Origin: Porphyrobacter sp. CACIAM 03H1
Lineage (GTDB): Bacteria; Pseudomonadota; Alphaproteobacteria; Sphingomonadales; Sphingomonadaceae
NCBI RefSeq assembly: GCF_002215495.1
Contig: NZ_CP021378.1
Span: 1-64,000, forward strand
Length of the DNA: 64,000 nt
Reading direction: 5' to 3'
Below, piece by piece: positions 2,332 through 19,975 of the stretch. Made by a program: the position numbers and the translations under genes. The notes under the pieces are model-generated. The model searched no databases, was not told the origin of the DNA, and worked only from the letters and a program-made list of their open reading frames with translations. Each line of letters opens with the position of its first letter. Within the stretch, counting starts at the first letter, position 1.

Positions 2332-2973
2332 TCAGGCGGCGAGGGTCAAACGCCCCATGGTCGATTCCATCTTCATGCGGATCGCCTCGGCGGCGTGGCG
2401 AGCGCCGAGCTTGTTCATCATGTTCGCGCGGTGGATCTCGACCGTTCGTGGACTGATGTGAAGCTGCCGTGCGATGTCCTTGTTGGAGTTACCCGCAGTC
2501 AACGCATCAAGCACCTCACGCTCGCGCTCCGACAGCGCGGCAAGCCGGCGCTGAGCGTGAATGACGCGCTGGCGCCATTGGCTCACCTGGGCCGCTTCCC
2601 GACCGATCCGTGAAAGACAGGACGCAAGGCGCTCGGGGCGCAGGGGCAGGGACAGGTAATCGAGCGCGCCCGCCTTGATCGCCTCAACCACGCGGCCGGG
2701 CGACGGCTCGACGTCCATCGCCACAACCGGCAGGGAAATGCCCAGAGACATGAGGCGCTCCAAAGCGAACCCGACGCCGCCGATCTGAGGGCAGTCGCGA
2801 ACGAAAATGATCCCAGCGCGCGGCGGGTGAACCGAAAGTTCCGAGTAGTCGCTGTACAGTTCGCAATGCCGCCCGACAGAGCGTCCAACCCGTACCAGCT
2901 CGGCCCTGACCTGAATGTCGGCCTCGACGAAGTGCAGCGGCATGCTGGAAGAAGTATCGTGTTCGTGTTGCAT
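2332..2973 (-). CDS. LuxR/FixJ-family transcriptional regulator with degenerate receiver
   Basis: A 213-residue DNA-binding regulator. The start at 2973 is chosen because AAGGGG lies six bases before it; the frame is open a further 15 codons upstream. Residues about 10-125 follow the receiver fold of FixJ-type regulators, but key phosphorylation residues are missing. The conserved Thr/Ser position reads VVAMD, the conserved Lys position reads LSLPLRP, and the phospho-acceptor Asp is displaced (IIFVRDCPQ). Residues about 145-205 are an intact LuxR HTH (LSEREREVLDALTAGNSNKDIA, then SPRTVEIHRANMMNKLGA). It is probably controlled by something other than classical phosphotransfer. No sensor kinase is adjacent. 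The target is unknown. Confidence 0.85.
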   Translation of the reverse strand: MQHEHDTSSSMPLHFVEADIQVRAELVRVGRSVGRHCELYSDYSELSVHPPRAGIIFVRDCPQIGGVGFALERLMSLGISLPVVAMDVEPSPGRVVEAIKAGALDYLSLPLRPERLASCLSRIGREAAQVSQWRQRVIHAQRRLAALSEREREVLDALTAGNSNKDIARQLHISPRTVEIHRANMMNKLGARHAAEAIRMKMESTMGRLTLAA

Positions 2974-3638
2974 GGCATTCCCCTTTTCCATGCTCCACAC
3001 ACTGCCATGCGTAAACATGGTAAACAGAAAAGAAGTTAATCCGTAGCTCTACTTATGGGCGGGTGTGCGAAACGCGGGGCCTGAAAAGATCCATTATCGA
3101 CAATCATCCTATTCGGTGGCATATTCCCTCCGAAATGGAAGGAAGAGTGGATGCTTACCAAAAGAGAGATTTTGTGGTTGCACGCACTCCAGGCAGACTT
3201 CGCTCGCATGAGGGATTGGGTCGCGGTCGGTCATGTGCAGGGCCTGATCGACCACATCGCAGATGAGCATGGTCTTGCGGGCGGCCCACTGCCGAACATC
3301 GGTACCGGACTCGAGATGCATTGACAGCGGAAGGCACAAGGCCCCCGCGCGCGGCAGGTCTCCAAGGTCGGGGGGCCGGATGCCGCAAGGCTTTCGCAGC
3401 GGCATTGGCCGGAACTGGCCTGAAAAGGTCCTTAGGCCCAGTCTTTACCGCGATTGCTGATATCGGCAAACCCGTCGCGCCGCGCGGTAGACAATTGGGC
3501 GCCACAGTCTCGCCTGGACGATCGGCAGTGCCCCGCACCATTAATCAAGCGCCATGAACGCTCGCTCGGTTAACCTTACCTTAGAGCTTGTAGTGACATG
3601 GCCATATGCACACGAAGGTTGAGGGATCAGGGACACAG
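2974..3638. other. intergenic stretch with PilZ-gene promoter signals
   Basis: About 660 bp between the divergent LuxR-type gene and the PilZ gene starting at 3639. No frame here looks like protein. Near the right end are TTAATCAAGCGC (3541-3552), nearly repeated upstream of the small gene at 6502, and a CtrA-like TTAA-N7-TTAG at 3570-3584. Confidence 0.5.
3570..3584 (+). promoter_or_regulatory. CtrA-like site TTAA-N7-TTAG
   Basis: The bases read TTAA, seven bases, TTAG, one mismatch from the CtrA consensus TTAA-N7-TTAA. The site lies 54 bp before the preferred start of the PilZ gene at 3639. A related TTTA-N7-TTAG sits 51 bp before the next PilZ gene (4735-4749). The match is visible; the assignment to CtrA is inference. 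Confidence 0.4.
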
Positions 3639-3998
3639 ATGACGAGCGTGAGGAACTCCACTGGCGATCCCCAAGCGAAGGGACGCCCAGCCGATCGTCG
3701 CTGGAGCGCCCGGCTCGTGATGAACGTGCCGGTCGTCCTGAAGGACGCAAACGGCCGGAATGTGCCCGCCAGCATTGTCAACATGGCCGAGGACGGATTG
3801 ATGATCGCATTCGATCCGCGCCATGAGATTACGACCTATTCGATCTTCTCGATCGAGATAGAAGCCCATTGCAACCTGCAGTGTTACGCGGTCTGGATCG
3901 ACCGCGGCCGCGCTGGAATGCAATTGACACTTCCCGTTCACCCCGCCGTTCTCAACGGGCTGGTGCGCAGATACCCTTTGCCCACGCCGGGCGTCTGA
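3639..3998 (+). CDS. single-domain PilZ protein
   Basis: A small cytoplasmic protein of 119 residues from the ATG at 3639, which follows AGGGACACAG; an in-frame ATG at 3606 would add 11 residues. It is essentially one PilZ domain, the family that binds cyclic di-GMP. An RxxxR motif is seen in RRWSAR. The second motif reads NMAEDG, where the consensus is (D/N)xSxxG, so Ser is replaced by Ala and binding may be weakened. The beta-barrel continues through CYAVWIDRGRAGMQ. It is the first of several PilZ singletons in this region. Partner and target are unknown. Confidence 0.85.
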   Translation: MTSVRNSTGDPQAKGRPADRRWSARLVMNVPVVLKDANGRNVPASIVNMAEDGLMIAFDPRHEITTYSIFSIEIEAHCNLQCYAVWIDRGRAGMQLTLPVHPAVLNGLVRRYPLPTPGV

Positions 3999-4800
3999 AA
4001 CCTCCGCAGCGGGATTTCTCCTCCCCGGGGGTCGAGAAGCCTGTCACCCGCCAATGATTGGGGTCGGCTAGGTCGGCCGGACACCTGGACCGCGTGATGG
4101 GTCCTGCTGCAGGCCGGGGCTTTCGCTGCAGGTCGGCGCGTGAGCGCCATTAACCGGGGCTCCTCCTGGGGCACAGCTCATCAGCAACGAAGAATGATGA
4201 AAGCGCGGGTGAACCGGCTTCATGCCCGCTGCCACCGCGTCTCGCCGGCCACATGCCGCGACAGATAGCCGCCGCACACACCAGAGCTTTCGCGCGCGAG
4301 GTATGGGCCCAAAGAGTTCAGGGAGGTTGCAGCCATGATCCGCCGCGCGCGCCGGCCCGCCTCACCTGCATGGCGCAAGCGGCCCTTGGGCAAGCACTTT
4401 GGACCGACAGGCCGATGTCGAGATCCCTGCTATTGCGCATGCGCTGCAGGATCTGCGGGCGACCCGGAGGTTCGAAGTGACTGTAGGAAAATTGGCCGCC
4501 AGCCGTCCGTGGGTGCATCTGGTAGGGGACTGGCGGCCAACCTTGTGTCGGAGTGAACCGCACAGGCTCGCTCCTGATGACCAGTACATGATTAGGGGAT
4601 TTGGTTTAAACCCTCGAAACCAACGACATCAGTATCTTCGCTGAGCCGAAAGTTTTTCCCGGGCATCCTCGGCACGCTTCTCCCAGGAGACATTTTCTCG
4701 CGCTCGCGCCGGCATCCACTCAAGACACGCGAGCTTTACCTTCTCTTAGCACATCAGGGATGATCATACCCCGCGGAGGGTGCGAGGGTAAGCCACCAAC
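3999..4800. other. 800 bp without a convincing gene
   Basis: All frames of this spacer were considered. The open ones are short, Arg/Pro/Ser-rich and lack good ribosome sites. A 10-bp palindrome GGTTTAAACC lies at 4603-4612 and a CtrA-like TTTA-N7-TTAG at 4735-4749. Nothing else is recognised. Confidence 0.5.
4735..4749 (+). promoter_or_regulatory. CtrA-like site TTTA-N7-TTAG
   Basis: The bases read TTTA, seven pyrimidine-rich bases, TTAG, starting 66 bp and ending 51 bp before the PilZ gene at 4801. Spacing and sequence resemble the element at 3570-3584 in front of the preceding PilZ gene. Two mismatches from the CtrA consensus make this tentative. Confidence 0.25.
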
Positions 4801-5238
4801 GTGCAGACAGGCTGGATCATGGTTCGAAATATCTGTGACATAAACCGCCGCAACCTCGCCGCGGAAGGCTTCGAGCAGGATGAGCGGGCTTTCGAGCGGC
4901 ATCGGACCTTCATCGCCGTGACGCTGAGAGGTGCCACGGGGAACGTCTATCCCGCCACGATCGAGAACATTTCCTTTGCCGGCTGCATGGCGAGCCTGCA
5001 ACTTGCTGATCGCATCAAGCGCGAGCGCGTCATCAGTGTCAGGTTCGGCGCATCTGTCCACGTTATCGGACGCGTGGTCTGGTCGCGAAACAACCAGGTG
5101 GGGCTTCGCTTCACGTCGCTGTTCGACCGCAACCGGATCGCAGCCGATGAGCGGCCAACGGCGGAGCAGGAGATTTCCAGCGACGCGCGCAGCGCCTTGC
5201 GCCTCGTCCCCGATGAGACGTCGGGGCACGGCTGCTGA
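4801..5238 (+). CDS. single-domain PilZ protein
   Basis: A 145-residue cytoplasmic PilZ protein, expected to bind cyclic di-GMP. The frame opens with GTG at 4801; an ATG at 4819 is an alternative start, and neither has a strong ribosome site. The binding motifs are present: RxxxR in RAFER followed by HR (about residues 29-35), and (D/N)xSxxG as NISFAG near residue 56. The barrel strand VIGRVVWSRNNQVGLRF follows. The C-terminal 35 residues are polar and probably disordered. It is second in a series of PilZ singletons on the same strand, each with its own long upstream spacer, so probably transcribed alone. Confidence 0.85.
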   Translation: MQTGWIMVRNICDINRRNLAAEGFEQDERAFERHRTFIAVTLRGATGNVYPATIENISFAGCMASLQLADRIKRERVISVRFGASVHVIGRVVWSRNNQVGLRFTSLFDRNRIAADERPTAEQEISSDARSALRLVPDETSGHGC

Positions 5239-5841
5239 ATGCGAGTTAACCGGCGCGGCCATGGAAGCGACATCTCGAGAGCCATACCGGATCTCGCAAG
5301 GCAGCCCAAGGCGCAGCGGGAGGATCGCTGGCGAGCAAGGGCCCCGGAAATCCGCTCGCTCATGTCCCTGAGCACCGGCGGGCTTGGGGGGACATGCCGC
5401 CGTCCTTGCCCACCCATGATCCTACAGAGGATGGCGAGGCGCAACTGCCTGGCCATGCCTCGCCTGCAAGAGCCACGGCTCGCCTGATCTGCCGAGTATG
5501 GTCGGAACTGCGAGCACAGCCAAGCCGACCGGGACAGACCTTCACCGGTTGCAGGCGGCGGGTAAGAGAACCAACGTGACTTACGTACGGCTTCTTTCTC
5601 TCCCTCCCGATCAGCCTTGTTCCCGCACGGTCTTCCCCGCCCGGGCAGGCATGTCAGTTTACCGTCATTAAGGGTTTCTCCATGGGTCAGCGTTAGGCAA
5701 GTCAATCGAAGCATGAGGCTCGGCGAGGTCACCAGGCGTGGTCGGGATCGGTAGGGGGTAGCGCCCCGCTGGTCAGAACCTGCAGTGATGTTCCGGCACG
5801 GCCTCTGCATCGGGGTCGCAGGAGCTTGAGGAGACCAACCG
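5239..5841. other. 600 bp without a convincing gene
   Basis: The spacer between two PilZ genes. Short frames here lack coding character or recognisable domains. TTTACCGTCATTAAGG at about 5656-5671 loosely resembles the TTAA-containing elements before the other PilZ genes, but its spacing differs. Nothing else was identified. Confidence 0.45.
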
Positions 5842-6294
5842 ATGAATTATCCGATGACGCCGCCGCTCAGCGGGGTTCGCGAACGCACTGCAAGCGCCGT
5901 CGCGATCGACGAGCGCCAGACCCTCAGGAGATGCCTGAGGCGGCCGGTGCAGCTTCAGGATTCAGGCGGGCTGAAATGTTCCGCCATCATGGTTGATATC
6001 TCGGAGACCGGTTGCCAATTGCAGTTTGACGGGTTCGTCTCGATCCAGGTCGGCCGAATTTACTGTGTCAAGCTCGAGGGCACCGAGGCGCTCGGCGCAT
6101 ACGCCATCTGGACTGACCGGGAGAGATCCGGATTTTTCTTCGCATCCCCGCTTTACACTGCAGTCGTCGAGCACATCGCCGGCAGAGCGACGCCGCCCCG
6201 CGCCGAGCCAGATGTCGCGAGAACGCTACCTTCCGTTCCCCGCGCAGCCCCGTTCAACTCGAGCCGGCCGCCTAAACTTTTCGCAGTTGTCTGA
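5842..6294 (+). CDS. single-domain PilZ protein
   Basis: A 150-residue PilZ protein with a clear start: GAGGAG lies eight bases before the ATG. The RxxxR motif is in RRCLRRPVQL at about residues 31-40 and the (D/N)xSxxG motif is a canonical DISETG near residue 55, so cyclic di-GMP binding is expected. The barrel continues through YAIWTDRERSGFFFASPLY. The last 40 residues are Pro/Ala/Arg-rich without a recognised fold. Third of the plus-strand PilZ singletons; no operon partner is adjacent. Confidence 0.88.
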   Translation: MNYPMTPPLSGVRERTASAVAIDERQTLRRCLRRPVQLQDSGGLKCSAIMVDISETGCQLQFDGFVSIQVGRIYCVKLEGTEALGAYAIWTDRERSGFFFASPLYTAVVEHIAGRATPPRAEPDVARTLPSVPRAAPFNSSRPPKLFAVV

Positions 6295-6501
6295 TTTGAA
6301 TGTGGAAATGGCCCCTCCCGCTTGGAAGCCAAGGCAGCGTCAGGCACCATTCGGGTCCAACTGTTGCGAATTTGCGACACACAGCGTGTGCAAACCTTTG
6401 CGAGACTTGTAGATATCCGCCAATAGCCTTAATCAAACGCTATCGTTGTATCCGGCTCAGGGAGGGCCGGCAATTCGCGGCATTCGCAAGAGGGGAGAAG
6501 C

Positions 6502-6669
6502 GTGTCCGCCGTCATTCTTGCAGATCTTGAACAGATCCTGAGCCGCCTCGATGAAGCGGGCGAGGCCTTGTGCGCCGCGCAGCTCCAGATGGTGATCGAC
6601 ACCCTCGAGAGGCGCTGTGATGCGGACGTCCGCGGACACGCGCCTCTCATGCGCAGCAAGGCCGATTAG
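6502..6669 (+). CDS. small helical protein, member of a local three-gene family
   Basis: A 55-residue protein starting at GTG 6502, directly after AGAGGGGAGAAGC, an excellent ribosome site. It is predicted to be mostly helical. Its core (ILADLEQILSRLDEAG, then AAQLQMVIDTLE) resembles the small proteins at 17555 and 19268, which share a pattern of acidic helix, short gap, then A-x-[HQ]-[LV]-x-M-x-[IL]-D-x-L. The gene is convergent with the MarR-like gene and their ends overlap by four bases (6666-6669). TTAATCAAACGC lies 62 bp upstream. Function is unknown; a role as a partner of the winged-helix protein is only inferred from position. Confidence 0.6.
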   Translation: MSAVILADLEQILSRLDEAGEALCAAQLQMVIDTLERRCDADVRGHAPLMRSKAD

Positions 6670-7154
6670 AGGAAGGCCGTAAGAGCGCGCTCCACCTTAA
6701 CCTTCCCGCCATCGGTCATTTGGATGACCGTGCGCCGCTTGTCCTCAGGGTCGGGCTTTCGCTCGATCAGCATCATGTTCTCGATGACCTGAAGCCAACG
6801 CAATCCCGTTGTGGTGGGACAGCCGCCACCAATGCAGGCGCTCGTCACCGAGATCTTCTTGCCAGTGACCCTGGCCTGATACAGGTCCAGCATCATGTCC
6901 CACGCGGGGCTGACTGCAAATCCCGTCATGTCGAAAATCTCGTCAACCTTGCGCCGCGCCGAGTAAATCTTCGCGGCGAGCCCAGCAAGCGTGGCCTGGG
7001 TGGGAATGACGGAGAGTTGGTCATCCGAGAATGACCGCAGCTCGATAGCAAGGGCCTCCATGCGGTCGGCAATCGTCTGTCGCCGGTCCTGCTGCCCAAT
7101 CGAAGCTGTCGGCGTGTGGCCTTCGGGCTGATATTCGGCAAGCTGTGTTCTCAA
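6666..7154 (-). CDS. MarR-like winged-helix protein (paralogue 1)
   Basis: A 162-residue transcription factor of the MarR-like winged-helix type. The start is placed at TTG 7154, preceded by GGAGGAGG at good spacing; an upstream TTG at 7169 lies on the ribosome site itself. The DNA-binding part is about residues 75-155: PAWDMMLDLYQARVTGKKIS, a recognition-helix region with VTSACIGGGCPTTTGLRWL, and a wing of the type RKPDPEDKRRTVIQMT. The same block occurs in the proteins at 15645 and 19334, so the window carries three paralogues. Its end overlaps the small gene at 6502. Ligand and targets are unknown. Confidence 0.82.
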   Translation of the reverse strand: MRTQLAEYQPEGHTPTASIGQQDRRQTIADRMEALAIELRSFSDDQLSVIPTQATLAGLAAKIYSARRKVDEIFDMTGFAVSPAWDMMLDLYQARVTGKKISVTSACIGGGCPTTTGLRWLQVIENMMLIERKPDPEDKRRTVIQMTDGGKVKVERALTAFL

Positions 7155-7509
7155 GACTGCCTCCTCCAAGTTAGTCGGAAGTTCCCCCTAGGGAACCAAC
7201 CTACTTGACGATCTCCGGTTCCTACGTGTGGTAAATTTAGCTTCGCGCGCGTGCATGCCCGTATTGTTGCGTAGCGGCGAATCCTCCGGGCTTTGGGGGC
7301 TAGAGCCCCGACAGAAATGCCCGAAGCAGTGCTTCCGGCTGACCGCAAGCCGCCGAATCAATAGTTTGGATTGATACTTGGCGGCGGCAGCACAACCTTG
7401 CCGGGCGCGCAATGCGAAGGTCAGGACCTACTCCCATCACGCCGCTCCGCCTGCAGCTTCGCGAGTGGCGCGGCCGCTGGACGACGTGCCTGTGACGGCC
7501 GCAAGCTCC
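7155..7509. other. intergenic, probably decayed coding sequence
   Basis: Between the MarR-like gene and the recognisable DUF1800 tail. The stretch just before 7510 may be the eroded body of the DUF1800 gene, but no family motif is readable upstream of about 7510. Confidence 0.35.
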
Positions 7510-7587
7510 AACGAGGATCGCATCCGCCGCGTCCATATCGGCGCGATGCTGATCCTCGCATCAACCGACTACCTGATCCAGAAATGA
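7510..7587 (+). pseudogene. C-terminal remnant of a DUF1800-type gene
   Basis: The last 25 codons before the TGA at 7585-7587 read NEDRIRRVHIGAMLILASTDYLIQK. That resembles the usual end of DUF1800 proteins, where a charged stretch is followed by a hydrophobic helix and a (S/T)PDYL(I/V)Q(K/R)-like tail. Upstream codons show no family similarity, so most of a 500-residue gene is gone. The position supports this reading, because DUF1800 genes usually sit directly before DUF1501 genes and a DUF1501 remnant starts 46 bp downstream. The assignment rests on few residues. Confidence 0.45.
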
Positions 7588-7632
7588 ACCGGCTGCACCC
7601 TCGCAAGAGGCAGTCCAGTAGGGCAATCAAAC

Positions 7633-8418: not shown

Positions 8419-10599
8419 TCAAAGGTGCGTGAGCTGCAATTGCACGAAGCTGGGCTTACCCTTCTTGGCGTCCTTCCAGGCACGAAGCGCTTCATGATCA
8501 CCGCTCAGGGAGGCTACCGGAAGTCCAGCCTCTGCCAAGGTATAGGGCGAAATCCGATGGCGGGTCATCAGCCCTCCATTGCCATCAGAGACCAGCGGAA
8601 CCTCGAAGCGCACACCCTGGCTCTTCTCGTCCGTATTGACCACGCTCGCCACTGCAAGTTGCCCATTGCCGAGATCCAGAACCACTTCCGTGCCGACCGG
8701 AACGCCCGCGATACCGGCAATCTTGGCGCCGGTTCGTGAAATGTTCTTCAGCAACACCTCGTAGTAGTGGTCGTCATGGACCAGCCCGATCTTGCGCAAC
8801 ACGGTCATCCGCTCGGCTCTCTGGCGGGCAAATCCTCTCGGCCTGAATGTCTGGAGCACCACAGAACCCTCATCGACGATCTGGGCCTGATCGAGCGGTG
8901 CTGAAAAGACGCCGCCATGAACGACCTCGATCCCGCTGGCGATGACCGCATCCAGGACATCGAGTGCATCGACCTCCCTGATCGAAGCCGGAACGCCAAA
9001 GGACCGCGCGATGCTGACAATCGCGCCGAGGATCGCATTGGTGCGCTCGGGCTGCAGAACCCAGTCACGCACAAATCTCGGCGAGATCTCAACCCGTTTG
9101 AAGCTGAAATCGGCAAGCAGCGCGATTGCGGAATTGCCCACGCCGAAATCGCTTGCAACCAACCTGACGCCGACAGCATCCAGATCATCGCCGAGCCTTT
9201 TCGCCATCTCGGCATCTGCCGAGAGGAATTCCTCGCTGATTTCGAGCTCAATGCGCGCACGATCGAACGAGGCATCGCTGGCAGCAGCAAGAATTATCTT
9301 CCGGAAATCCGGGTCCTTCAGGAACCCTCGGGGCGGAGAAATGGCAAGGCTGAGATTGCCCGGCCAGGCGGAAGCATCCTCGCAAGCCTGGCGCAGCATC
9401 CACTCGCCAAAGTCCCCGGATGCGCCCGAGCTTTCGATCATCGGCCAGAAGATGTCCGGCAGGACCTCGCCAAGCTCGGGACTGTTCCAGCAGACCTCGG
9501 CGCGCAACGCGCAAACCTCGTTGCTGCCGGCCGAAATCAGCGGGGCATAGCGCAGAGCGAATTCACCGCGCTCCATTGCCCCCTCGAGCTCCTGCTCGAT
9601 CCGGACAAGACGCGACGCCTCTTCGGCCAGTTCCGCGGAAAATATGCTGTAGCTGCCCCCCCCTGATTGCTTGGTCGACCTGAGTGCAAGGTTGGCCGCA
9701 TCGACCAGCTCCGTGGTCGTCACCGCGTCATAGGGAGCCATGGCAATGCCGATCGACACGCTCAGCTGGATCCGGCGTCCATGGACCCGGTACGGCTGCG
9801 AAAGCAACTTGCCCGCGTGCTCCGCGAACTCAGCAAGATCTCCCCGATCATCCACATCGGGCATGAAGATCCTGAACTGCTCTGTGGCAATGCGCCCCAC
9901 TTCCCCGCGATGGCGCAATGCCGACCTCAGACGGTTGCCCATCTCGGCCAGCACGCAGTCCATATGACCAATACCGTAGCGCTCGCAGGCATGTTGGAAG
10001 CGGTCGATTTCCATGACGACCAGCGCACACGGCCGCTCGGCATGCGCGAGGCTCTTGAAGGCCGCATCGAAGCGCTTGCCAAAGTGGGCAGCATTGTAAA
10101 AGTTCGTTACTTCGTCGAATTTCTCCTGCAGCATCTTCGTCTGGTGGTCGACGATCAGATGGGTGACATCGGCAGCATGCCCGAGATATCCGACAAACTG
10201 GTCGCCGAGATAATGAGGAAAGCCGCTCAGCTGAAGCCAGACGCCCGCCCCCTCCTCATTCTTATTCACGCAGCGCACGATATGATTGGTGATCTTGGCG
10301 CGCGCGCTCAGCTTGAGAGACAATGATCGCTGCTGCGAGATCGCGCTGTCACTCGGGGCATCCTCGAACACGCTCGTGATGCGCTTGCCCGACACGTCCG
10401 CCAACTGCACCCCGAGGGCAGCCAGTGCAGGCGCATGGATCGAGGCAATCCTGCCATCCGCGTCGGTCGACCACAAGATTGCGGCCTCGGATTGCGCGAG
10501 CGCGATGGCGAGATTGGCCGCGCTCCCCTCAGTTTCCTGAGCGGAACTCGGCCCTCGTGACCAGCCTAACCCGGCAATAGTTTTCAGTTTCCTGACCAT
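8419..10599 (-). CDS. PAS-GGDEF-EAL-PilZ protein with degenerate GGDEF and EAL sites
   Basis: A 726-residue multidomain cyclic-di-GMP-related protein with no signal peptide, so probably cytoplasmic. Order: PAS-like sensor (about 35-150), GGDEF fold (155-310), EAL fold (335-575), PilZ (610-700). The GGDEF signature is replaced by ATEQF (238-242). In the EAL part the motif reads ALRAEV, the Asn of VNxS is lost (LAISPPRG), the DDFG pair reads SDFG and the Lys of KID reads VEIS. Both enzymes are therefore probably inactive. The PilZ part keeps NISRTG. A receptor or scaffold role is likely. The gene lies downstream of and on the same strand as the Tad-type genes. A 33-bp inverted repeat ends five bases before its start. 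Confidence 0.88.
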   Translation of the reverse strand: MVRKLKTIAGLGWSRGPSSAQETEGSAANLAIALAQSEAAILWSTDADGRIASIHAPALAALGVQLADVSGKRITSVFEDAPSDSAISQQRSLSLKLSARAKITNHIVRCVNKNEEGAGVWLQLSGFPHYLGDQFVGYLGHAADVTHLIVDHQTKMLQEKFDEVTNFYNAAHFGKRFDAAFKSLAHAERPCALVVMEIDRFQHACERYGIGHMDCVLAEMGNRLRSALRHRGEVGRIATEQFRIFMPDVDDRGDLAEFAEHAGKLLSQPYRVHGRRIQLSVSIGIAMAPYDAVTTTELVDAANLALRSTKQSGGGSYSIFSAELAEEASRLVRIEQELEGAMERGEFALRYAPLISAGSNEVCALRAEVCWNSPELGEVLPDIFWPMIESSGASGDFGEWMLRQACEDASAWPGNLSLAISPPRGFLKDPDFRKIILAAASDASFDRARIELEISEEFLSADAEMAKRLGDDLDAVGVRLVASDFGVGNSAIALLADFSFKRVEISPRFVRDWVLQPERTNAILGAIVSIARSFGVPASIREVDALDVLDAVIASGIEVVHGGVFSAPLDQAQIVDEGSVVLQTFRPRGFARQRAERMTVLRKIGLVHDDHYYEVLLKNISRTGAKIAGIAGVPVGTEVVLDLGNGQLAVASVVNTDEKSQGVRFEVPLVSDGNGGLMTRHRISPYTLAEAGLPVASLSGDHEALRAWKDAKKGKPSFVQLQLTHL

Positions 10600-10603
10600 G
10601 GTG

Positions 10604-10769: not shown

Positions 10770-11444
10770 TTAATCGCAGACGGATACTTCCACACCTTCA
10801 GCATTACGCGGTGCATTGAGATCGCGACTTTCTCGCACGTTGAATACGGCCATCTCGCTGATCGGTTGCGGTGGGATGCTCATTATGGGGATTACAGGCT
10901 CGTAATTGTAATAGATCTCGACAACCATGACCGCCGTGCCGGCTGCCGCCTGCACCTGATTGCCGGCCGGCCCCATACCAGGAAAGCCGGTGCCACTCGC
11001 CCCATCACCCTCGACACCATATGCTGATCCGACCGGATTCTGGCCGAAGCAGCGCTGCCAGGCTATCCACTGCCCGCCCTGCGCATTGCGCTGCAAGCTC
11101 GACAGAATGATCCTGCCGTTCTCGGCAAGGTCACCCATGTTGGCCTGAAGTTCTGCACCGATGAAGACGTCGTTGATCTCCGCTTCCGAGATCTGATGAA
11201 TGCTGAGACCCGCACTGCGAGTCCCCATCCGCGAAGCGTTGTCGGCAACAAGAACGGCAAGATCGCCAATCCTCTTGGTCGCGAACACGAAATTCGCAAG
11301 CTCGATGCCGAAGGACAGCAAGATGAGCAGCAAGGGCAGCGCAAAAGCAAACTCGGTAAGCGCAAGACCCTCGCTGTCCTTGCCCAGCCGGCCCAGGTAG
11401 CGCGCGAAACCTGGTGGCATTTTTTCCTTGCGTCTCATGTGCAT
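10770..11444 (-). CDS. TadE-like pilus assembly protein
   Basis: A 224-residue protein of the TadE/pseudopilin type, used in Tad (Flp) pilus assembly. After a basic N-terminus comes EGLALTEFAFALPLLLILLSFGIELANFVF. The Glu and the hydrophobic segment are characteristic of TadE-like membrane anchors, and the rest is exported. It is last of three overlapping genes and starts inside the end of the preceding gene (10-bp overlap). The Tad ATPase, TadB/C and secretin genes are not in the window, so these minor components may work with a locus elsewhere. Confidence 0.8.
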   Translation of the reverse strand: MHMRRKEKMPPGFARYLGRLGKDSEGLALTEFAFALPLLLILLSFGIELANFVFATKRIGDLAVLVADNASRMGTRSAGLSIHQISEAEINDVFIGAELQANMGDLAENGRIILSSLQRNAQGGQWIAWQRCFGQNPVGSAYGVEGDGASGTGFPGMGPAGNQVQAAAGTAVMVVEIYYNYEPVIPIMSIPPQPISEMAVFNVRESRDLNAPRNAEGVEVSVCD

Positions 11445-12040
11445 ACCCGCGTCGTTGGCTGCGCCTGAAGATCGAAAGGCTGATTTTTCAGTAAGGTCTG
11501 AGCCTGCACCTCGACCGACGGATCAAGTCCAATCAGGGCTGAGACAGGGAACAGGCGATCATATGTCAAGGTGACGGTGTAGATGACCACGTCTCGTGCA
11601 CCTCCCCCACCCACACGGGCACCGTCAAGATCATGCCGTCCGTTGCCGTTGAGGTCGAGGAAGCTCTCACCGGCATCACAGTCATTGCTGTCGTTGGTGT
11701 CGACAAACGGTTCCGCCCGGGCCTGCGCCAGACCATAATTGTTGAACGAGACGCGCTCGAATTCAACCTCACCGTGCGGGACCAGCTCACGCATCTGTTC
11801 GGTCAGGCGGGCATCCATGTCGGACCGTGTCTCGTCGTTGGCCGTCTCAAGCGTTGAGGCGCGGCCAACCGCATTGACCAACCCGGTCAGCTGGGCACGG
11901 GCATAAACCAAGTAGGCGATGTCGAAGATGAACATTAGCACGCCCAGGAAAACGGGAGCAACGACCGCGAATTCCACGATCGTTGCCCCGGAGACGTCAG
12001 ACACCAGCCTGCGCCATGTGCTGTCAGGGGGCAAAGCCAT
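11435..12040 (-). CDS. TadE-like pilus assembly protein
   Basis: A 201-residue TadE-family protein. The N-terminal segment GATIVEFAVVAPVFLGVLMFIFDIAYLVYARAQ has the E-plus-hydrophobic-helix signature of TadE/TadG anchors near residues 17-50. The remainder, with an acidic NDSNDCDAGE stretch that could bind metal, is predicted to lie in the periplasm. The start overlaps the stop of the VWA-domain gene by one base in an ATGA context (12040), so it is translationally coupled to it. Confidence 0.85.
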   Translation of the reverse strand: MALPPDSTWRRLVSDVSGATIVEFAVVAPVFLGVLMFIFDIAYLVYARAQLTGLVNAVGRASTLETANDETRSDMDARLTEQMRELVPHGEVEFERVSFNNYGLAQARAEPFVDTNDSNDCDAGESFLDLNGNGRHDLDGARVGGGGARDVVIYTVTLTYDRLFPVSALIGLDPSVEVQAQTLLKNQPFDLQAQPTTRVCT

Positions 12041-14097
12041 CAGCTGGTCAGCCTCAGTTCGGCCAATTGCGTGGCGATCTGGGAGAAGGTCGCGGTCAGT
12101 TCGGCCGCGTTGCGGGCTTCAAACGCACGTCCCGGTGATGCGCAGTTGATCAGCAGTTCATCAAGGTCCGTGCCGAAGGCGATGACCCACAAGGTGATAT
12201 TCTTGTTGTTCTTGGCGACCTCGCACAGCTCGGCAAGACGGCTTTCGGAGACACTGTCTTCCATCGTGCGGGAAGGAAAGCTCCCTGTCGGTGTGCGACG
12301 GCGCGCAACCGCCGCGATGCCCCAGGCCGAATAGGTGAAGGGGCGCGTATCCTTCTGCCCGTCAACCATGAAGATCATGTGCCGCTGGACAGCGCCGCCC
12401 GAATCCGCGACGCGGTGTTCGGCACTGAACAGGCCTTCCCGCGAGATCAGCCGCAGCCCCCACAGCATACCGATCTCGTGGTAGGTATAGCCCTGCGGCC
12501 GCAGGGAACCCATGTAGGATTGCAGCTGCTGCAGGGTGATCTCGCCCATCTTCCGGGCGGGAGAGGGGCATGCACCCTCATAGATGCCAAAGTTTGAACC
12601 GAAGGGATTGAAGTAGTTGTAGGTCGTCGTCAGGCTCATCTGCCGTGTGATGGTCGCTGAAAGACCGCTGAAGACCCATTGACCATTGGTGAGCGGGTTT
12701 GTGGTTACGCGCTGCTCGGTCTCGCGGCTGCCAGACCCGACATTCCGGGCATAGACAAGCGCCGGCAGATAGGGTTTCCACTGCGTGTCCGGGTCAGTGC
12801 GCGATGGAACCAGGTCAACCTCCATGTCGTATCGCGGTGTGAGGAAGGTCTCGTTGGTGCGCCGGGTCGCGCGCTCCTCGATGCAGGCCCTGTCACCATC
12901 CGGCCACCTGATGGTGCGGTCGGTCTGGTTGTCATTGACCGGAGCAGAAAAACTTCCGCCCGACACCACGGCGTCGCCCGATCCCGAACCCTTGAGAGGA
13001 CGCAGATCGTACTGGATCGGCTCGTAGATCCAGTGGCGTGCCGTGTTGGTCGTGGTGCCGCCCGTGTTGGTGTTCTCGCGCACGGTCTCCGTCTGCTGCT
13101 CGCGATAATCATTCCAGTCGCGAGGCGTGATCCAGCAATTGCCGTTGGAGTCGCGCTGGATGATGAATTCGGTGCCGTTGCGGGTCCGGATCCGCGTGCG
13201 GGAGCGGGGTAGCGCGGTTGATGAGGGTTCCCATGCACTCCAGCTCGTCGTCGTATCGCTCCAGTTTTCTCGCGGTAGGCTCGTAGGGCAGTTCTCCGAG
13301 GGGGCCTGGTAGCGCGGCCGGTCGGTGCGTGTGCCGCTCAGGAATGTCGAAGTGGTCTGCGATACAGTGCTGCTCGGGTTGCCCCCCGATTCCCAGGTAT
13401 GCACACCGTCAGGACGACGCGAGTCGTAGGTCCCGTAATCCTGGATCCAGTCGCGATGAAGCAGCATGCCGACGTTGACAGTCTGGGAGTAAGGCACGAA
13501 GCCGTAACGGATACGCGCACCTTCCGGTTTTGCTGCCTCGAGCGTGTTGTAGAACGAAGTTACGGCATTCGTCAGAGCATCGATCCGACGAATACTGTCT
13601 CCCGGGTTGGGGTCATTCATTGAAAGCGTCGTGTCGAGCACCATCATCACGTCGGTGTTCGGCAGGTTGAGATCTGCCGAACACGACACTGACACGTCAC
13701 GATTCTCGAAGTTGAAGAAGCGCATGAGGGTCATGGGGACCTGAACGGTCGCCTCACCATTTACAACGCCGCTTGAATTCGCCGAATATTCAACCGACAA
13801 ATCACCCGTCGAGTAACTTCCTTGCGGGAAATTGAAGTTGAAATAGTTTTCTGCGACCTGCTCGCTCGCGCCGTTCCACGTAAGACCATTCATCGCACGC
13901 CTTGAGGCAAGTGCGCCTGCATCGCAAGCGGACTGAAGGCGGGACTGGACGAGATAGATGCGGCTCAGATCGACCGCGCCGCCAATCATGGCAACCAAAG
14001 GGACTATCGCCGCAGCAGTCATCGCGAGGGTATTCGCGCTCTTGTCCAGCAGGAGAGCCCTGGCAAAAGGCCGTCCGGAGAAATAGCTCAACACCAT
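12040..14097 (-). CDS. TadG-like protein with von Willebrand factor A domain
   Basis: A 685-residue membrane-anchored protein related to TadG. Residues about 20-50 form the hydrophobic pseudopilin-like anchor (TLAMTAAAIVPLVAMIGGAVDLSR). The VWA domain begins at TDVMMVLDTTLSMND near residue 153, with a MIDAS-type DxTxS pattern, and resumes near the C-terminus with RHMIFMVDGQKDT and ITLWVIAFGTD. A long Ser/Thr/Arg-rich insert separates the two halves. It is first of a three-gene Tad-type operon. A stem-loop lies about 110 bp upstream at 14206-14231. Confidence 0.85.
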   Translation of the reverse strand: MVLSYFSGRPFARALLLDKSANTLAMTAAAIVPLVAMIGGAVDLSRIYLVQSRLQSACDAGALASRRAMNGLTWNGASEQVAENYFNFNFPQGSYSTGDLSVEYSANSSGVVNGEATVQVPMTLMRFFNFENRDVSVSCSADLNLPNTDVMMVLDTTLSMNDPNPGDSIRRIDALTNAVTSFYNTLEAAKPEGARIRYGFVPYSQTVNVGMLLHRDWIQDYGTYDSRRPDGVHTWESGGNPSSTVSQTTSTFLSGTRTDRPRYQAPSENCPTSLPRENWSDTTTSWSAWEPSSTALPRSRTRIRTRNGTEFIIQRDSNGNCWITPRDWNDYREQQTETVRENTNTGGTTTNTARHWIYEPIQYDLRPLKGSGSGDAVVSGGSFSAPVNDNQTDRTIRWPDGDRACIEERATRRTNETFLTPRYDMEVDLVPSRTDPDTQWKPYLPALVYARNVGSGSRETEQRVTTNPLTNGQWVFSGLSATITRQMSLTTTYNYFNPFGSNFGIYEGACPSPARKMGEITLQQLQSYMGSLRPQGYTYHEIGMLWGLRLISREGLFSAEHRVADSGGAVQRHMIFMVDGQKDTRPFTYSAWGIAAVARRRTPTGSFPSRTMEDSVSESRLAELCEVAKNNKNITLWVIAFGTDLDELLINCASPGRAFEARNAAELTATFSQIATQLAELRLTS

Positions 14098-14961: not shown

Positions 14962-15644
14962 GATCGCCTTGGCACGCAAGCCATCTTGATGGCGCTCCTT
15001 TCCTCAATGCCGCTTGTCCCTGCCTGCCCGCAAGCCTCGTGCGCGCGCCGCGGCCCAGCCAGCCACGTTCGCTGACGAGCCCGGTATTGACCAATACATC
15101 CCAAACTCGGGCGCGGCTGACTGCTCGAATTGCTGTGCGGCGGTCTGAAGGGACAAAGCAGGATTGCAACTGCCGGAGGCCGGGGCTGGCTCGCTTTGCG
15201 CAAGCGCAGCTTCATCTCACGCAATCCGGAACCGACCAAAAGAAAGCGCAAGCCAGCCTTCGAGGCTCGCTACGTCTGGGTACCAAGCTGACCGCAAAGC
15301 GCCTCCCGTCCATCACGCTTCCTTGCTACCAACGGGCAGTCCGGCTCAAGCCCTGCCGCTGATCGGCTTTCACCCGATCTAAAGCACTTCCCTGATCACT
15401 ATGTTAATCTCTTTTAAAGAAAACGAAAACCGAGCAGGCGAGGACAGACTAACAGCGCTGCTAAGCGGGCTGATCTGCGCGGCCGACTCGATGGTCGCGC
15501 AGGTCCTGCAACGCTGCACTGTTGCTCATCGCTGATGAGTTGTCATGGCGGAGAAAGGTCTGCATGCGCGCTTGCCTACACCTCCGGCAGGTCGACGGCA
15601 CTCATTCGGCCCTCTCGGGCAAAGAAAAGCGCGGAAGTTGTTTC
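14962..15644. other. 680 bp without a convincing gene
   Basis: The spacer before the second MarR-like gene. Candidate frames are short and atypical. An AT-richer patch at about 15390-15430 may be a promoter region. Nothing else is recognised. Confidence 0.45.
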
Positions 15645-16028
15645 ATGGATTTGGCCAAAGAATTCCAAGGTCTTGGCGCTGACCCTCTGCTGTGTCAGGC
15701 GGAGCGGATTCTGTCCCAACGCAAGCTGCGCAACCTCACGATCGACCCCGATCTACTCGGCGAACCGGGATGGGACATCCTTCTGCTCGCCTATGTCGCG
15801 CATCGTCGAGGCTCGTCATGCACGATTGCTCAAGTGGCCGATGAACTGAATGCAAGCTCCGCACTCGTGACACGCTGGGTCAGCGCGCTGACAGCCCGCA
15901 ACCTGTTAGTGAGCAACCAGATCTCCTTTTCGATCAGCGATCTTGCGGAATGCAAAATATCGGATCTGCTTGAACACAACATCAGGGAGATGGCTCAGGC
16001 ATTCAGGCACGCAAAGCCCAGTCCCTGA
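15645..16028 (+). CDS. MarR-like winged-helix protein (paralogue 2)
   Basis: A 127-residue protein from ATG 15645 (MDLAKEFQG), with GGAAG eight bases upstream; the frame is open 41 codons further but without protein-like sequence. The winged-helix block starts at LLGEPGWDILLLAYVAHRRG and continues through IAQVADELNASSALVTRWVSAL to a short wing. It aligns with the proteins at 6666 and 19334 (DPAWDMLLDLYV-type motif, then VTRW/LRWL). This copy lacks the charged DPEDKRR wing of paralogue 1 and is the most divergent. Target and ligand are unknown. Confidence 0.72.
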   Translation: MDLAKEFQGLGADPLLCQAERILSQRKLRNLTIDPDLLGEPGWDILLLAYVAHRRGSSCTIAQVADELNASSALVTRWVSALTARNLLVSNQISFSISDLAECKISDLLEHNIREMAQAFRHAKPSP

Positions 16029-16747
16029 CTCTGACTGCCTCCTTCACCCCACAATAGCGGCATGCGACAGCGTCGGCGGCCCAATGTGCCCGACTGCCCC
16101 AGAGAATTGGCACTTCGCGGGCGAGGCGAGGATATGTCCGATCCGCAGTCGCTAACATGAGCAGACCGGCTCACGCTCCCACCTGCAGCCCTAGCGTTCC
16201 TGTCTTGCCCGCTACGGGTCTAGCCGGGCGGCAGCAGGTGAATGGCTCCACCTGTCCCTCATGCGGCGAGGGACCTGCCTCCTGCGCCGCGTTGTCGATG
16301 ACGTTGACACTGTCAACGAGAACGATATTGTGCGACCAAGCACATCGTCAAGGTCGAAGATCATGCACGAGGACCTGCACAATCGGCCAAGCCTCAGGAG
16401 CAACTTCGTATGTCTCTCCTTATCAGGGACAGGACCGGACAATGTGTGCCCGGTGACATAGTCGACACGTGTCACTGCCTGTCCATCGGCACTGAGCGAC
16501 CAGATGGGGAATACAGGCTGATCGACCACCATGGACCTCGCGGCGTCGCCTTCGCAAACCAATTTGCCGCAGCCAATCGGATCGACGGTCTGTCCGCTGA
16601 TCGGCGTTGCCCCCAACAACGCCTGCAGTCAGACCGGCGAAGGGTGCCGGCAAAGAAGCGGACCGCCCTGCGTCATCTTCAACGAGATCAGGTTGACCCT
16701 GCCTCGTCGCCAACAGCGAACCAGCGACGCAGGTCAGGCTTTAGAAC
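16029..16747. other. 720 bp without a convincing gene
   Basis: The longest frame is on the minus strand (16212-16619, 135 codons). It has a plausible central stretch (VFPIWSLSADGQAVTRVDYVTG) but an Arg/Ser-rich tail, no good ribosome site and no recognised domain. It could be an orphan gene or a decayed one. Confidence 0.4.
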
Positions 16748-17389
16748 ATGAGTAGTCAGGGAGAGACCAGCCCGTGTTCGGATCTGCGAGAAGCCTGCGT
16801 GCGTGAAGCGCTCGCCATCATCACCTCCGCCGGCGTCGAGAAGCTCAGCCTTCGCGAGGTGGCGCGGCGGCTTGGGGTCTCGCATCAGTCTCCCTATCGG
16901 CACTTCGAGAGCCGGGACCATGTGCTGGCCGAAATCGTGCGAAGGGCGTTCGTCGATTTTGCTGCAGCCCTGCGCGGTGCGCCGATCACGGACAATCCCG
17001 GCGCAGATGCGCTACAGATGGGGTTCACCTATGTTCGCTTTGCACTCACGCAGCCGCTTCAGTACCGGCTGATGTTCGGAGGCAGCCTCCCCGATCCGAT
17101 GGTCCACAGCGAAATGATGCGGGGCGCCCGGGACGCCTTCAACGTCCTTCGCGACGCGCTCAGGCGGGTGGCCGCCGCGCGGGGAAGAATGGCCGACCCA
17201 AAGGTGCTTGATCAAGAAGCCCTGTTCGCGTGGTCCAGCCTGCACGGCGCTGTCAGCTTGTTGGCAAGTGACGCAATGGGAACGCTCGACCTCGATCCCG
17301 GCGAGCAGGATGCCTTTATCGGCCATGCATTGAAAAGGATAGGAACCGCACTCGGCATAACCCCCCCGCATACTCACGAATCGTCTTAA
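16748..17389 (+). CDS. TetR-family transcriptional regulator
   Basis: A 213-residue repressor-type protein. Residues about 12-65 form the TetR HTH: REALAIITSAGVEKLSLREVARRLGVSHQSPYRHFESRDHVLAEI, in which helix 3 reads SHQSPYRHF. The C-terminal part, with YRLMFGGSLPDP and WSSLHGAVSLL, resembles the WHG-type ligand domain (TetR_C_33). A small gene follows 165 bp downstream on the same strand. The ligand is unknown; there is no divergent transporter or enzyme to suggest one. Confidence 0.92.
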   Translation: MSSQGETSPCSDLREACVREALAIITSAGVEKLSLREVARRLGVSHQSPYRHFESRDHVLAEIVRRAFVDFAAALRGAPITDNPGADALQMGFTYVRFALTQPLQYRLMFGGSLPDPMVHSEMMRGARDAFNVLRDALRRVAAARGRMADPKVLDQEALFAWSSLHGAVSLLASDAMGTLDLDPGEQDAFIGHALKRIGTALGITPPHTHESS

Positions 17390-17554
17390 GGTTATCTCAG
17401 CCGCTGTCCGGGATGGCCGATTGGCCTCGCCCGGTTACTCTTTCGCTGCGGGCTTGTGGATCAAGGGCTCACTTCTTCGCACGGACGGGAACCTCGCGCC
17501 GCCCAAGAACCGGCCTGGGCACGGCAGGATCCGCTGAAAGCACAAGGAACGATA

Positions 17555-17803
17555 ATGTCTTCGAAGGAGTGCGAAACTCATCGTAACAGCAGTGCCACCA
17601 TGCGGATCGAGTCGAGACGCGATCCTGCAGCGGCGCCGCCTTCGCGCAAGCTCGAAGACACGAGGCGGCTCAAAGCACTGGTTGCACAGGCATTGGCCAT
17701 ATCTGACGAGCTCAATCTGCCGTTTGTCGGGATCGATCTGAGCGCAGCGCTCGAGAAACTCGGTGACCCCGAATGTTCACGCGTTGAAAAGGACATTGGC
17801 TGA
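17555..17803 (+). CDS. small helical protein, member of a local three-gene family
   Basis: An 82-residue protein from ATG 17555, preceded by AAGGA at six bases. The first 45 residues are polar. The C-terminal part (ALVAQALAISDELNLPFVGI, then DLSAALEKLG) is an amphipathic helix pair. It resembles the small proteins at 6502 and 19268 in pattern and in its position next to a regulator, here the TetR gene. The upstream extension to 17456 has no ribosome site. Function is unknown. Confidence 0.6.
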   Translation: MSSKECETHRNSSATMRIESRRDPAAAPPSRKLEDTRRLKALVAQALAISDELNLPFVGIDLSAALEKLGDPECSRVEKDIG

Positions 17804-18127
17804 TGACCAGGGCAAGGCCCGGCTACCCCCGGCTAGCCCGAGCGGACATTGCGACTTCCCTAAGAAAGGGGGATCACGTGCACCAGCAAATGTGGGAGCG
17901 AACTCGCCGCCGCAGCTGCCAGCGCCCTTGCGAAGATGCTTCAATAGCAGCCCAGCAAGCTGCTGCACCTTGCATCTTGAGCCCGCACAAACAACCGCTG
18001 CGCGGGCGTGTCAGCATGTTCCTCCACTTCAATGCGAACGGCTAGACGCGGCAGTAGAGCGATCGAGGCCGTACTTGCTTGGCCGCGCAGCAATCACTTC
18101 AGGCCGCAGGCTGCGCCAGTGCACCGA
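17804..18127. other. intergenic, no gene recognised
   Basis: 324 bp between the small gene and the convergent PilZ gene. Frames here are Arg/Cys-rich and not protein-like. No terminator with a T-run was found. Confidence 0.4.
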
Positions 18128-18652
18128 CTATTCGGCAAGAAGCCCGAACAGGCTAAATCCGATCAACACCCACAACAGACTGCTGGCACCCAGAATTATC
18201 CTCGCCTTGGTGGCAAGGGACAATGCCTCGGCTGCATCGTCTGGCGAAAGGACGTCGTCATCCACCGCCAAAAGAGCGCCCACTTGGCTGCGGCCCGTGT
18301 ATCCTGCACCAGCAAGTGCCGATTTCGTGAGGCTCAACACCACAAGCTCCTGGAGTTCTGATGGGTCCAGAGGTTCCGAGAAAGCGGTGCCGTGAAGTCT
18401 GCCGCTGCTCCAGACAACCTTGCAGAACTTCGGAACCGAATTCGGCAGCTCAACGATAAGGCACACGCCCGAGGGTAAGGCATGTTCGGTCTGGAGAAGC
18501 AAGCCAGTGGCTGACACGTTCAGAATGGTCAGGTCTGGGGAGCTGTCATGTGAGTCGGCTCGCAGTGCCCCCAAACGCACGCGCCAGCGCTCATCGCCGC
18601 GGCGTTCGGCCGGCTCATCACGGAGCAAAAGAGCTGGAATCGACACTGACAC
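18128..18652 (-). CDS. PilZ protein with C-terminal membrane segment
   Basis: A 174-residue protein starting at GTG 18652. The PilZ domain spans about residues 12-105 with RxxxR in RRGDERWRVR and a good second motif, NVSATG. The barrel strand VVWSSGRLHGTAF follows. Unlike the other singletons, it ends with a hydrophobic segment (IILGASSLLWVLIGFSLFGLL), so it is probably tethered to the inner membrane with the PilZ domain facing the cytoplasm. It stands alone between two spacers. Confidence 0.83.
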   Translation of the reverse strand: MSVSIPALLLRDEPAERRGDERWRVRLGALRADSHDSSPDLTILNVSATGLLLQTEHALPSGVCLIVELPNSVPKFCKVVWSSGRLHGTAFSEPLDPSELQELVVLSLTKSALAGAGYTGRSQVGALLAVDDDVLSPDDAAEALSLATKARIILGASSLLWVLIGFSLFGLLAE

Positions 18653-19049
18653 TCACCACAGACTGTCCCCGGCATTTGGGCGATCGATCTTGAGAATGTG
18701 TAGGGGCTGGCATCGGGAAAACACGTAGGGCGCATCTTCGCTGCTATCGGGGCGCGCGAATACCGAAGCAACCCTCGCGGCCCGTCACGCCGCCTCAATC
18801 ATCCGTGACAGAAACATGACGGGCGTGGGACAATCAAGCCAGCAGATCGGGCGCCCGCCCATCACTGCAGATCACATTGACCGCCCCGCGAGCGGAACGT
18901 CATTGCCACTTCTGACCATCGGCTCACAGGCAAGCGGGCCAGATGGACAGGCCACAGGCTTTCGTGACAGCAGACCAACTGCAGGAAGAAAGTGTCCTCA
19001 TGCGCTCGTCTCCAGGCTAAAAGTCAAGTTGGCTCAATAGGCCGAATAT
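18653..19049. other. intergenic, no gene recognised
   Basis: About 400 bp that should hold the PilZ promoter. No frame shows coding character and no repeat or hairpin stands out. Confidence 0.4.
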
Positions 19050-19268
19050 TCAGAAGTCATCGGGCTCATCTCCCGCCGGGGTGCCGGTCGTGCTCAGCAC
19101 CCGAGCCGTGACGATCGGAGCAAAGGGTGCGCCGCCAAGCGATTTGCTCGGCCCATTCACACAAAGAGCATCAAGCGCCATCTGGACATGTGCAGCGGAC
19201 ACGAGATTACCCGACGATTCCAGATCGTCGATGATCATGGTCATGCGATGCGAGATATCGGCAAGCAT
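19050..19268 (-). CDS. small helical protein, member of a local three-gene family
   Basis: A 72-residue protein from ATG 19268. The N-terminal half (MTMIIDDLESSGNLVSAAHV, then QMALDALC) matches the pattern in the proteins at 6502 and 17555; the C-terminal half is Gly/Pro/Thr-rich. It lies 65 bp downstream of the MarR-like gene at 19334-19975 on the same strand, so the two may be co-transcribed. The ribosome site is weak. Function is unknown. Confidence 0.55.
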   Translation of the reverse strand: MLADISHRMTMIIDDLESSGNLVSAAHVQMALDALCVNGPSKSLGGAPFAPIVTARVLSTTGTPAGDEPDDF

Positions 19269-19333
19269 ATAAAGAGATATGCATATCGCACATCTTTGTT
19301 CCCGGTGGACGCGTCTCCCCTTTCGGAAAAAGC

Positions 19334-19975
19334 TTAAGGCAGGCCTGTGCCGAGGATTGCGCTGAGGGCCCGATGCGCCTTGCTCGTCAGGGTCACAAAT
19401 CTGGCACCGCCACGGCCTGCATCCGCTGTCAGTAGGACAAGGCCTTGGCTTTCAAGCACCGCAAGCCAGCGAAGCGCTGTTGCCTGCGGCACAATGGCAG
19501 CACGGCACGCCCGTGCAGTAGAGGTTTTCTGCCCCCGATGTTCCCGCACAAACATGTCGAGGAGCATGGACCAGGCCGGATCGCCAAGCAGTTCGCGCGG
19601 TAAGGAGCGTGCGCGCACCTTTCGACGACGAAGCTCGAGTTCGGCACACATGACGAGCCTCTCGAACGATGGCACGCTTCGGTCGCGGGACGTCTCGCCC
19701 GACGGACGCGATCGCGCGCGACCAGCTTCGAGCGGCACCGCGGCGCTTGGCAATAAACTCGGGTCTGACGAACAGGATGTGGCTGAAAACCTCGCTTCTG
19801 GGACATCCACTGGACTGCTCCTTTGCGGTTGCGGTTCCCCTCCCGTCCCACACGAGCAAGAGTCGGCTATAGGCCCGTTTTGCTTGACGTCCAAATTTCT
19901 GCACAAGGCGCCGCAAGTTTGTCCGCAACTCCTCTCCAACTGCAAAAGTGCTCGAGCCCGCTTGCTGCACGGCAA
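19334..19975 (-). CDS. MarR-like winged-helix protein (paralogue 3)
   Basis: A frame of up to 213 codons, opening at a TTG at 19975. Only the last 105 residues are recognisable: LLGDPAWSMLLDMFVREHRG, then IVPQATALRWLAVLESQGL, then a wing and a closing helix. This is the block shared with the proteins at 6666 and 15645. The first 100 residues are Ser/Pro/Arg-rich and may be untranslated, so the true start is uncertain; ATG at 19651 is the latest possible. A small helical protein gene follows. Target unknown. Confidence 0.72.
   Translation of the reverse strand: MPCSKRARALLQLERSCGQTCGALCRNLDVKQNGPIADSCSCGTGGEPQPQRSSPVDVPEARFSATSCSSDPSLLPSAAVPLEAGRARSRPSGETSRDRSVPSFERLVMCAELELRRRKVRARSLPRELLGDPAWSMLLDMFVREHRGQKTSTARACRAAIVPQATALRWLAVLESQGLVLLTADAGRGGARFVTLTSKAHRALSAILGTGLP

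Follow-up and report, generated by a model that had tools for sequence, protein, structure and literature searches.

Canonical members of the MarR family sense small molecules, and MarR proteins normally carry C-terminal dimerisation helices after the wing. SinR, in turn, is not a MarR protein, and its partner SinI resembles part of it. SinI of Bacillus subtilis binds SinR, disrupts its multimer and lifts the repression of biofilm genes (PMC6123443). Here we analyse a stretch of 64,000 nucleotides from Porphyrobacter sp. CACIAM 03H1 (“the window”, bases 1–64,000 of a genome that is complete in a single contig and has 3,525,023 bases), which encodes three MarR-like proteins (MarR-like 1 to 3) and three small helical proteins (small 1 to 3). 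Genes of these two kinds lie next to each other in related genomes far more often than expected by chance, and we favour, with modest confidence, the reading that the small protein is a protein partner of its regulator and that both together make up a two-gene regulatory module present in multiple copies in Sphingomonadales.

As in the SinI/SinR system, a small protein would act on a DNA-binding regulator, and by analogy the pair may work as SinI does on SinR, without being a member of that system. Unlike SinI with its likeness to SinR, the small proteins show no homology to the N-terminal parts of the MarR-like proteins, and the idea of a split protein was rejected on the same comparison (hhalign, 0.2%, for 65 of 85 MarR-like frames; the motif pattern used missed the other 20, MarR-like 1 among them). 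Here there are also many paralogous pairs and several regulator classes. MarR-like 1 shares with MepR (PDB entry 4lll) and other MarR proteins a predicted winged-helix fold and wing, but its model differs from them in extra long N-terminal helices and in having only a 14-residue helix after the wing; whereas canonical MarR proteins sense ligands, the frequent companion here is a small protein. The two-helix hairpin predicted for small 1 is of similar size to Rop/Rom, but the Foldseek E value lies above 1, no sequence relation was seen and the small protein is not a member of that family.

The small proteins form one family

The core members of the small-protein family, encoded directly upstream of a MarR-like gene, have the consensus LExQLxxLDxxGAxIAAAHLDAAIQQLR. 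The core pair was reached through a search with MarR-like 1 over 41 genomes; the genus-level survey comprised 61. A profile of 14 core small proteins found small 1 (6502) at E 0.0024 and nothing at E ≤ 1 in 22 control stretches of 20 kb each (440 kb in total), and on iteration 24 matches were included, none of them from the controls. A profile free of window sequences placed small 1 at E 4.4e-5 (rank 3), small 3 (19050) at E 0.16 (rank 13; best control 1.4) and small 2 (17558) at E 14, while a broader profile without window rows reached small 2 at E 5e-9 and small 3 at E 0.083 (best control 3.1). Small 2 was queried as 17558–17803, though an ATG at 17555 may be its start.

Compared as hidden Markov models (HMM–HMM comparison) with the core family including small 1, the subfamilies of small 3 and small 2 scored 95.3% and 94.3%, respectively, against a maximum of 2.8% for 30 column-shuffled controls, which bears out the homology that an earlier note on this stretch had supposed and whose absence it had named as a refutation. 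The two subfamilies compared directly gave no match (0.1%), so that their link runs through the core subfamily. All three small proteins of the window thus match the family profile, small 3 by HMM–HMM comparison only and small 2 via intermediates, and, read from their sequences, they are one family of putative helical hairpins of about 55 residues. Between small 1 and its counterpart in genome G045, the proportions of synonymous (pS) and non-synonymous (pN) differences are 0.77 and 0.23 over 38 codons, and one antisense frame has a similar ratio.

The family appears to be undescribed. Neither Pfam nor NCBIfam holds a family of weight for it; five of 62 members match an amidase model of NCBIfam (best E 0.0044), which we took to be chance, so that an amidase identity was rejected. 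The search for solved relatives in the PDB gave nothing better than a match at E 0.26, and the fold search with Foldseek nothing significant (E above 1), with Rop among the best matches. No description of such a small protein/regulator pair was found in open-licence literature listings. The one plasmid-borne member that was confirmed by the profile and seen with its annotation, WP_156452179.1, is annotated as hypothetical protein. On a plasmid of Sphingomonas paeninsulae, a hypothetical protein of 60 residues (L420:4374–4556) is encoded 80 bp after a MarR-like gene; it looks like a small protein by eye and has no profile match at E ≤ 1.

The MarR-like proteins are divergent members of the MarR fold

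Taken singly, the MarR-like proteins of the window stay below the Pfam cut-offs (best 21.9 bits against 22.2, HTH_27), and other members of their alignment reach a Pfam E value of 4e-8. A profile of 18 core proteins from the genus, all from outside the window, matches all three, at E 6.8e-36 (6684–7001), 1.3e-17 (19364–19678) and 2.8e-8 (15690–15914). The three genes, claimed as paralogues in the earlier note, are one divergent MarR-fold family, and a profile of 49 members matches MarR chains of the PDB at E 5e-8. The model of MarR-like 1 (mean predicted local distance difference test score, pLDDT, 88) places a MarR winged helix behind helices 23–49 and 58–79 and gives 84 PDB matches at E ≤ 0.001 with Foldseek. 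The modelled chain ends 16 residues past the last strand of the wing, the single 14-residue helix lying in this part, and the C-terminal dimerisation helices of MarR proteins appear to be missing from MarR-like 1, the sole MarR-like protein modelled.

A search for fused small–MarR proteins in the 85 MarR-like frames gave no significant match (best E 0.27), and MarR-like 3 found no match in phage records. MarR relatives were also found on plasmids. On a plasmid of Blastomonas sp. RAC04 a MarR-like domain shares the frame of a JAB-annotated protein (L417:3497–4342), and a protein with two tandem MarR-like domains (L195:2778–3638) adjoins a small protein and a tandem PilZ protein.

Small and MarR-like genes are paired far beyond chance

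To count pairs, MarR-like genes were taken from independent searches and not from the neighbourhoods of small genes. A 62-row small-protein profile (E ≤ 0.01) gave 74 matches in the 61 genomes. For 61 of these a MarR-like gene from those searches is at most 1 kb away, where chance predicts 0.15% per match; the number rises to 63 when two MarR genes first seen in fetched loci are added (G044 contig 9, G055 contig 20). The remaining 11 comprise three after a TetR gene or its remnant (window, G047, G045), two before a LuxR-type helix-turn-helix (HTH) gene (G011, G073), two at contig ends (G055), one whose MarR gene is cut by a contig end (G023), one with no MarR gene in 9 kb (G048) and two within long frames, which are probably chance matches.

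Because this profile was partly built from MarR neighbourhoods, single-sequence queries and the named genomes provide the cleaner evidence. In single queries over the 61 genomes, counting all matches at E ≤ 1 other than the query itself, a MarR-like gene lay no more than 1 kb away in 13 of 43 cases for small 1 (P 6e-27 at the same chance rate), in four of 57 for small 2 (P 2e-6) and in two of 35 for small 3 (P 0.001); the latter two, ranks 1 and 5 (E 0.003 and 0.034), are both from G003 and have the order of the window. The named set is independent, being the best 80 of 561 MarR loci from a separate genome collection, and was searched at E < 1e-3 with a profile built without those loci. Here 43 loci contain a small gene. 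In 41 it lies no more than 1 kb from the MarR gene, either upstream on the same strand (39) or convergent (two), and the pairs span Erythrobacter, Porphyrobacter, Qipengyuania, Novosphingobium, Sphingomonas, Parasphingorhabdus and other genera. Five loci of this set whose labels name Rhizobiales or one of its families (L315, L320, L322, L332 and L368) gave no small match, and in a Hyphomicrobiaceae bin (L329) the small gene lies 2 kb from the MarR gene.

The core pair is the most constant. Among 51 core MarR genes of the genus, 47 are preceded, on their own strand and within 1 kb, by a small gene, and over the 61 genomes core small and core MarR gene occur together in 47, the small gene alone in two (one of them a contig end, L423), the MarR gene alone in three and neither in nine (Fisher 6e-7); the two are co-inherited. 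None of 52 long-frame MarR relatives of the genus, which by eye have an additional domain at the N-terminus and were picked by one of us nearly all by frame length, has a small gene within 1.5 kb. The pairing is thus real, and the survey of related genomes, which the earlier note had named as a test that could refute it, confirmed the recurrence.

Arrangements and other regulator classes

We recorded the arrangement of 87 small matches at 81 loci, mostly chosen for their MarR or small content. Relative to a MarR gene, 46 lie upstream on the same strand, eight are convergent, five divergent and two downstream on the same strand; 13 lie upstream of a LuxR-type HTH gene, two after a TetR gene and 11 have no such neighbour. 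The system is broader than the earlier note proposed: the core pair is present in most of the genus, and other small genes stand by LuxR-type and TetR genes.

The arrangements of the window recur. The genes of small 1 and MarR-like 1 (6502–6669 and 6666–7169) lie tail to tail with an overlap of 4 bp, and this convergent pair is repeated in G045 (L215), G044 (L182) and G011 (L216), each with a second small gene about 0.65 kb beyond the far side of the MarR gene, which in G045 and G044 precedes a LuxR-type HTH gene. The order TetR–small is found again in G047 (L234) and, with only a remnant of the TetR gene, in G045 (L215), and the order of MarR-like 3 and small 3 at two loci of G003 (L190 and L191). 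MarR-like 2 has relatives at L215 (11349–11729) and L397. The arrangement class was correctly given by the nearest small protein in 54 of 76 cases against 30.8 after shuffling, a result driven mainly by the core class and in which two TetR-linked small proteins, carrying different label spellings, could not match each other.

Several further observations concern these surroundings. A recurring cassette (Table 1) consists of a LuxR-type HTH gene (with a hydrophobic C-terminus by eye), a gene for a protein of about 110–130 residues and one for a membrane-like protein of about 150 residues; it mostly continues with a RadC or MarR-like gene, often has a small gene nearby and is present on sphingomonad plasmids too. 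On a plasmid of Sphingopyxis macrogoltabida (L418) its HTH–X–membrane–MarR form lies next to a lasso peptide cluster. In G047 the LuxR-type gene beside a small gene (L181:937–2657) seems, by eye, truncated by transposase genes. Genome G262 has seven small matches (L457–L459), several in convergent orientation to MarR-like genes that closely resemble one another, which points to a recent duplication of these copies.

The genes around the pairs of the window

Every gene named in the earlier note is an open reading frame at its position (Table 1). The four single PilZ proteins fared unevenly against Pfam, two passing the cut-off (3606 and 4801) and two falling below it (5842 and 18128). PilZ proteins are marked by the motifs RxxxR and [DN]xSxxG; by eye both are present in all the single PilZ proteins except 3606. 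A fifth PilZ domain belongs to the protein of 8419–10599, whose GGDEF and EAL signature motifs appear degenerate by eye, so that it may serve as a receptor and not have enzyme activity. The FixJ-like regulator has counterparts at L215, L216 and L195 (by eye) and L405 (HTH match). Also by eye, three genes at 10770–14097 resemble TadE/TadG pilus genes, and deoxythymidine diphosphate (dTDP)-sugar genes lie at 396–2065.

Table 1. Genes of the window that bear on the analysis, and loci of the recurring cassette
Feature	Position	Strand	Basis
FixJ-like regulator, LuxR-type HTH	2332..3018	-	domain search
Single PilZ protein	3606..3998	+	Pfam E 9.4e-5, passes cut-off
Single PilZ protein	4801..5238	+	Pfam E 2.4e-9, passes cut-off
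Single PilZ protein	5842..6294	+	Pfam E 0.0034, below cut-off
Small 1, putative helical hairpin of 55 residues	6502..6669	+	own profile match; predicted helices 2–19, 22–44
MarR-like 1, predicted winged helix with long N-terminal helices	6666..7169	-	profile match; model pLDDT 88; best PDB match MepR 4lll
PAS-GGDEF-EAL-PilZ protein	8419..10599	-	domain search
MarR-like 2, GEPGWDILLLAYVA type	15522..16028	+	profile E 2.8e-8; TTG start uncertain
TetR-family regulator, upstream of small 2	16748..17389	+	family search; 63% identical TetR precedes a small gene in G047 (L234)
Small 2, after TetR	17555..17803	+	profile and HMM–HMM
Single PilZ protein, hydrophobic C-terminal stretch (by eye)	18128..18652	-	Pfam E 5.7e-4, below cut-off
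Small 3, 65 bp downstream of MarR-like 3	19050..19268	-	HMM–HMM
MarR-like 3, WSMLLD type	19334..19975	-	profile E 1.3e-17; TTG start probably too far upstream
Cassette loci	L215:13333-14913, L213:2987-5167, L208:10526-12114, L412:2525-4658, L417-L419, L421

The earlier note had tied the system to cyclic-di-GMP output. Of the 35 accessory MarR genes in 12 genomes, eight have a PilZ domain no more than 5 kb away (P 2e-5, with chance at 3.5% per gene). Three PilZ genes of the window that the genome search did not list were added for this count; four of the 35 MarR genes come from fetched loci, two of these four are among the eight, and two of the four were noticed beside small genes. Excluding the window, the count is five of 32 (P 0.005), and for core MarR genes it is none of nine. 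Neighbourhoods like that of the window were seen in G060 (GGDEF, FixJ-like, small, double MarR, tandem PilZ), G015 (tandem PilZ) and G044 (an HD-type phosphodiesterase-like gene and PilZ). PilZ is enriched near accessory MarR genes, yet this is confined to a minority of copies, and the link to cyclic-di-GMP is weak.

Discussion

In the module that we favour, the first gene would encode a divergent MarR-type winged-helix protein with a shortened C-terminal part; its place would be taken in some copies by a LuxR-type HTH protein that ends in a hydrophobic stretch, or by a TetR protein. The second gene would encode a helical hairpin, about 55 residues long, that belongs to an apparently undescribed family. 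Judging from gene order and sequence, the small protein most likely binds its own regulator; in the predicted structures the contact would probably involve the long N-terminal helices of the regulator, against which the hairpin could pack. Binding would alter dimerisation or DNA binding of the regulator, and the effect may be inhibitory, as the small antagonist suggested in the earlier note would require.

A number of observations weigh against a partnership of this kind. In other genera, 25 of 44 small proteins (E ≤ 0.001) have no match to a MarR, LuxR-type or TetR profile within 1.2 kb; the remaining 19, 17 and two from the two locus sets, do. The 44 comprise 42 counted by hand from 48, after removal of four genus loci and two duplicates, and two from further loci; the family-level scan covered 149 genomes, for which MarR content was no selection criterion. 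Many of the 25 have an MREALALLDxAGE-like pattern, and by eye another TetR gene is close to two of them and a small gene of XRE type close to one. Core-type small genes stand beside enolase with the MarR gene missing (L403, L415, L416 and L436; L432 is the same place as L403, and L432 and L436 are counted among the 25). A gene like that of small 3 (L002:1438–1644) has no MarR neighbour and lies 9 kb from a core pair; its surroundings are phage-like genes by eye. In G045 a small gene is still open (L215:2003–2479) beside a decayed TetR gene, apparently a 3' remnant. The orientation of the pair varies between loci, the non-core small subfamilies track arrangement only loosely (11 of 30), and the contrast with long-frame relatives is not significant in the named loci (two of nine versus 39 of 73, Fisher 0.15). 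With 25 of 44 lacking a regulator neighbour, the small protein can exist without its regulator.

Small genes that persist at the enolase locus with no MarR gene, and a subfamily that lacks regulator neighbours, would suit another reading. In it the small protein is a stand-alone regulator, binding RNA or DNA or acting as a Rop-like scaffold; its gene would have a transcription unit or control region in common with the HTH gene, but the small protein would not bind the HTH protein. Rop is also among the best, though non-significant, fold matches. We nevertheless regard this as unlikely, since co-inheritance with MarR, the several orientations including tail to tail and the three classes of HTH neighbours fit protein contact better. 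More doubtful still is that small and HTH genes have no functional link and are simply carried side by side by mobile cassettes of sphingomonads (LuxR-type HTH, small, membrane protein, RadC, MarR). Such cassettes do occur on plasmids and, by eye, near transposase genes, but 47 of the 61 genus genomes keep the order of the core pair, and the pair is seen in Novosphingobium too. A toxin–antitoxin type pair, with one gene giving protection from its partner and both repressed by the HTH protein, would explain two adjacent small genes with many paralogues and with MarR relatives on plasmids, but is very improbable given that Pfam, NCBIfam and PADLOC yield no toxin, antitoxin or defence family of weight, that the core pair is kept in most of the genus, that convergent and divergent orders exist and that small genes survive alone.

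Taking the small protein as the partner of its regulator, a wider proposal can be made, which we hold only tentatively and would sooner doubt than assert: an order-wide, apparently undescribed family of hairpins of about 55 residues may supply interchangeable protein input subunits for transcription factors of three unrelated classes (shortened MarR proteins, LuxR-type proteins with a membrane-like tail and TetR proteins), replacing the small-molecule ligand or fused sensor domain usual in these regulators. As the window copies lie amid PilZ, GGDEF/EAL, pilus-type and dTDP-sugar genes, surface or biofilm functions would be the likeliest outputs, which is a guess from gene context.

If the small proteins bind their regulators, an order of environmental bacteria would steer MarR-type regulators by dedicated small proteins instead of ligands, and would do so with a regulatory small-protein family that has no Pfam or NCBIfam model. 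Several paralogous pairs in a single genome would allow partner specificity to be tested directly, and those pairs that neighbour PilZ and pilus-type genes would offer an entry to the control of surface attachment in Erythrobacter.

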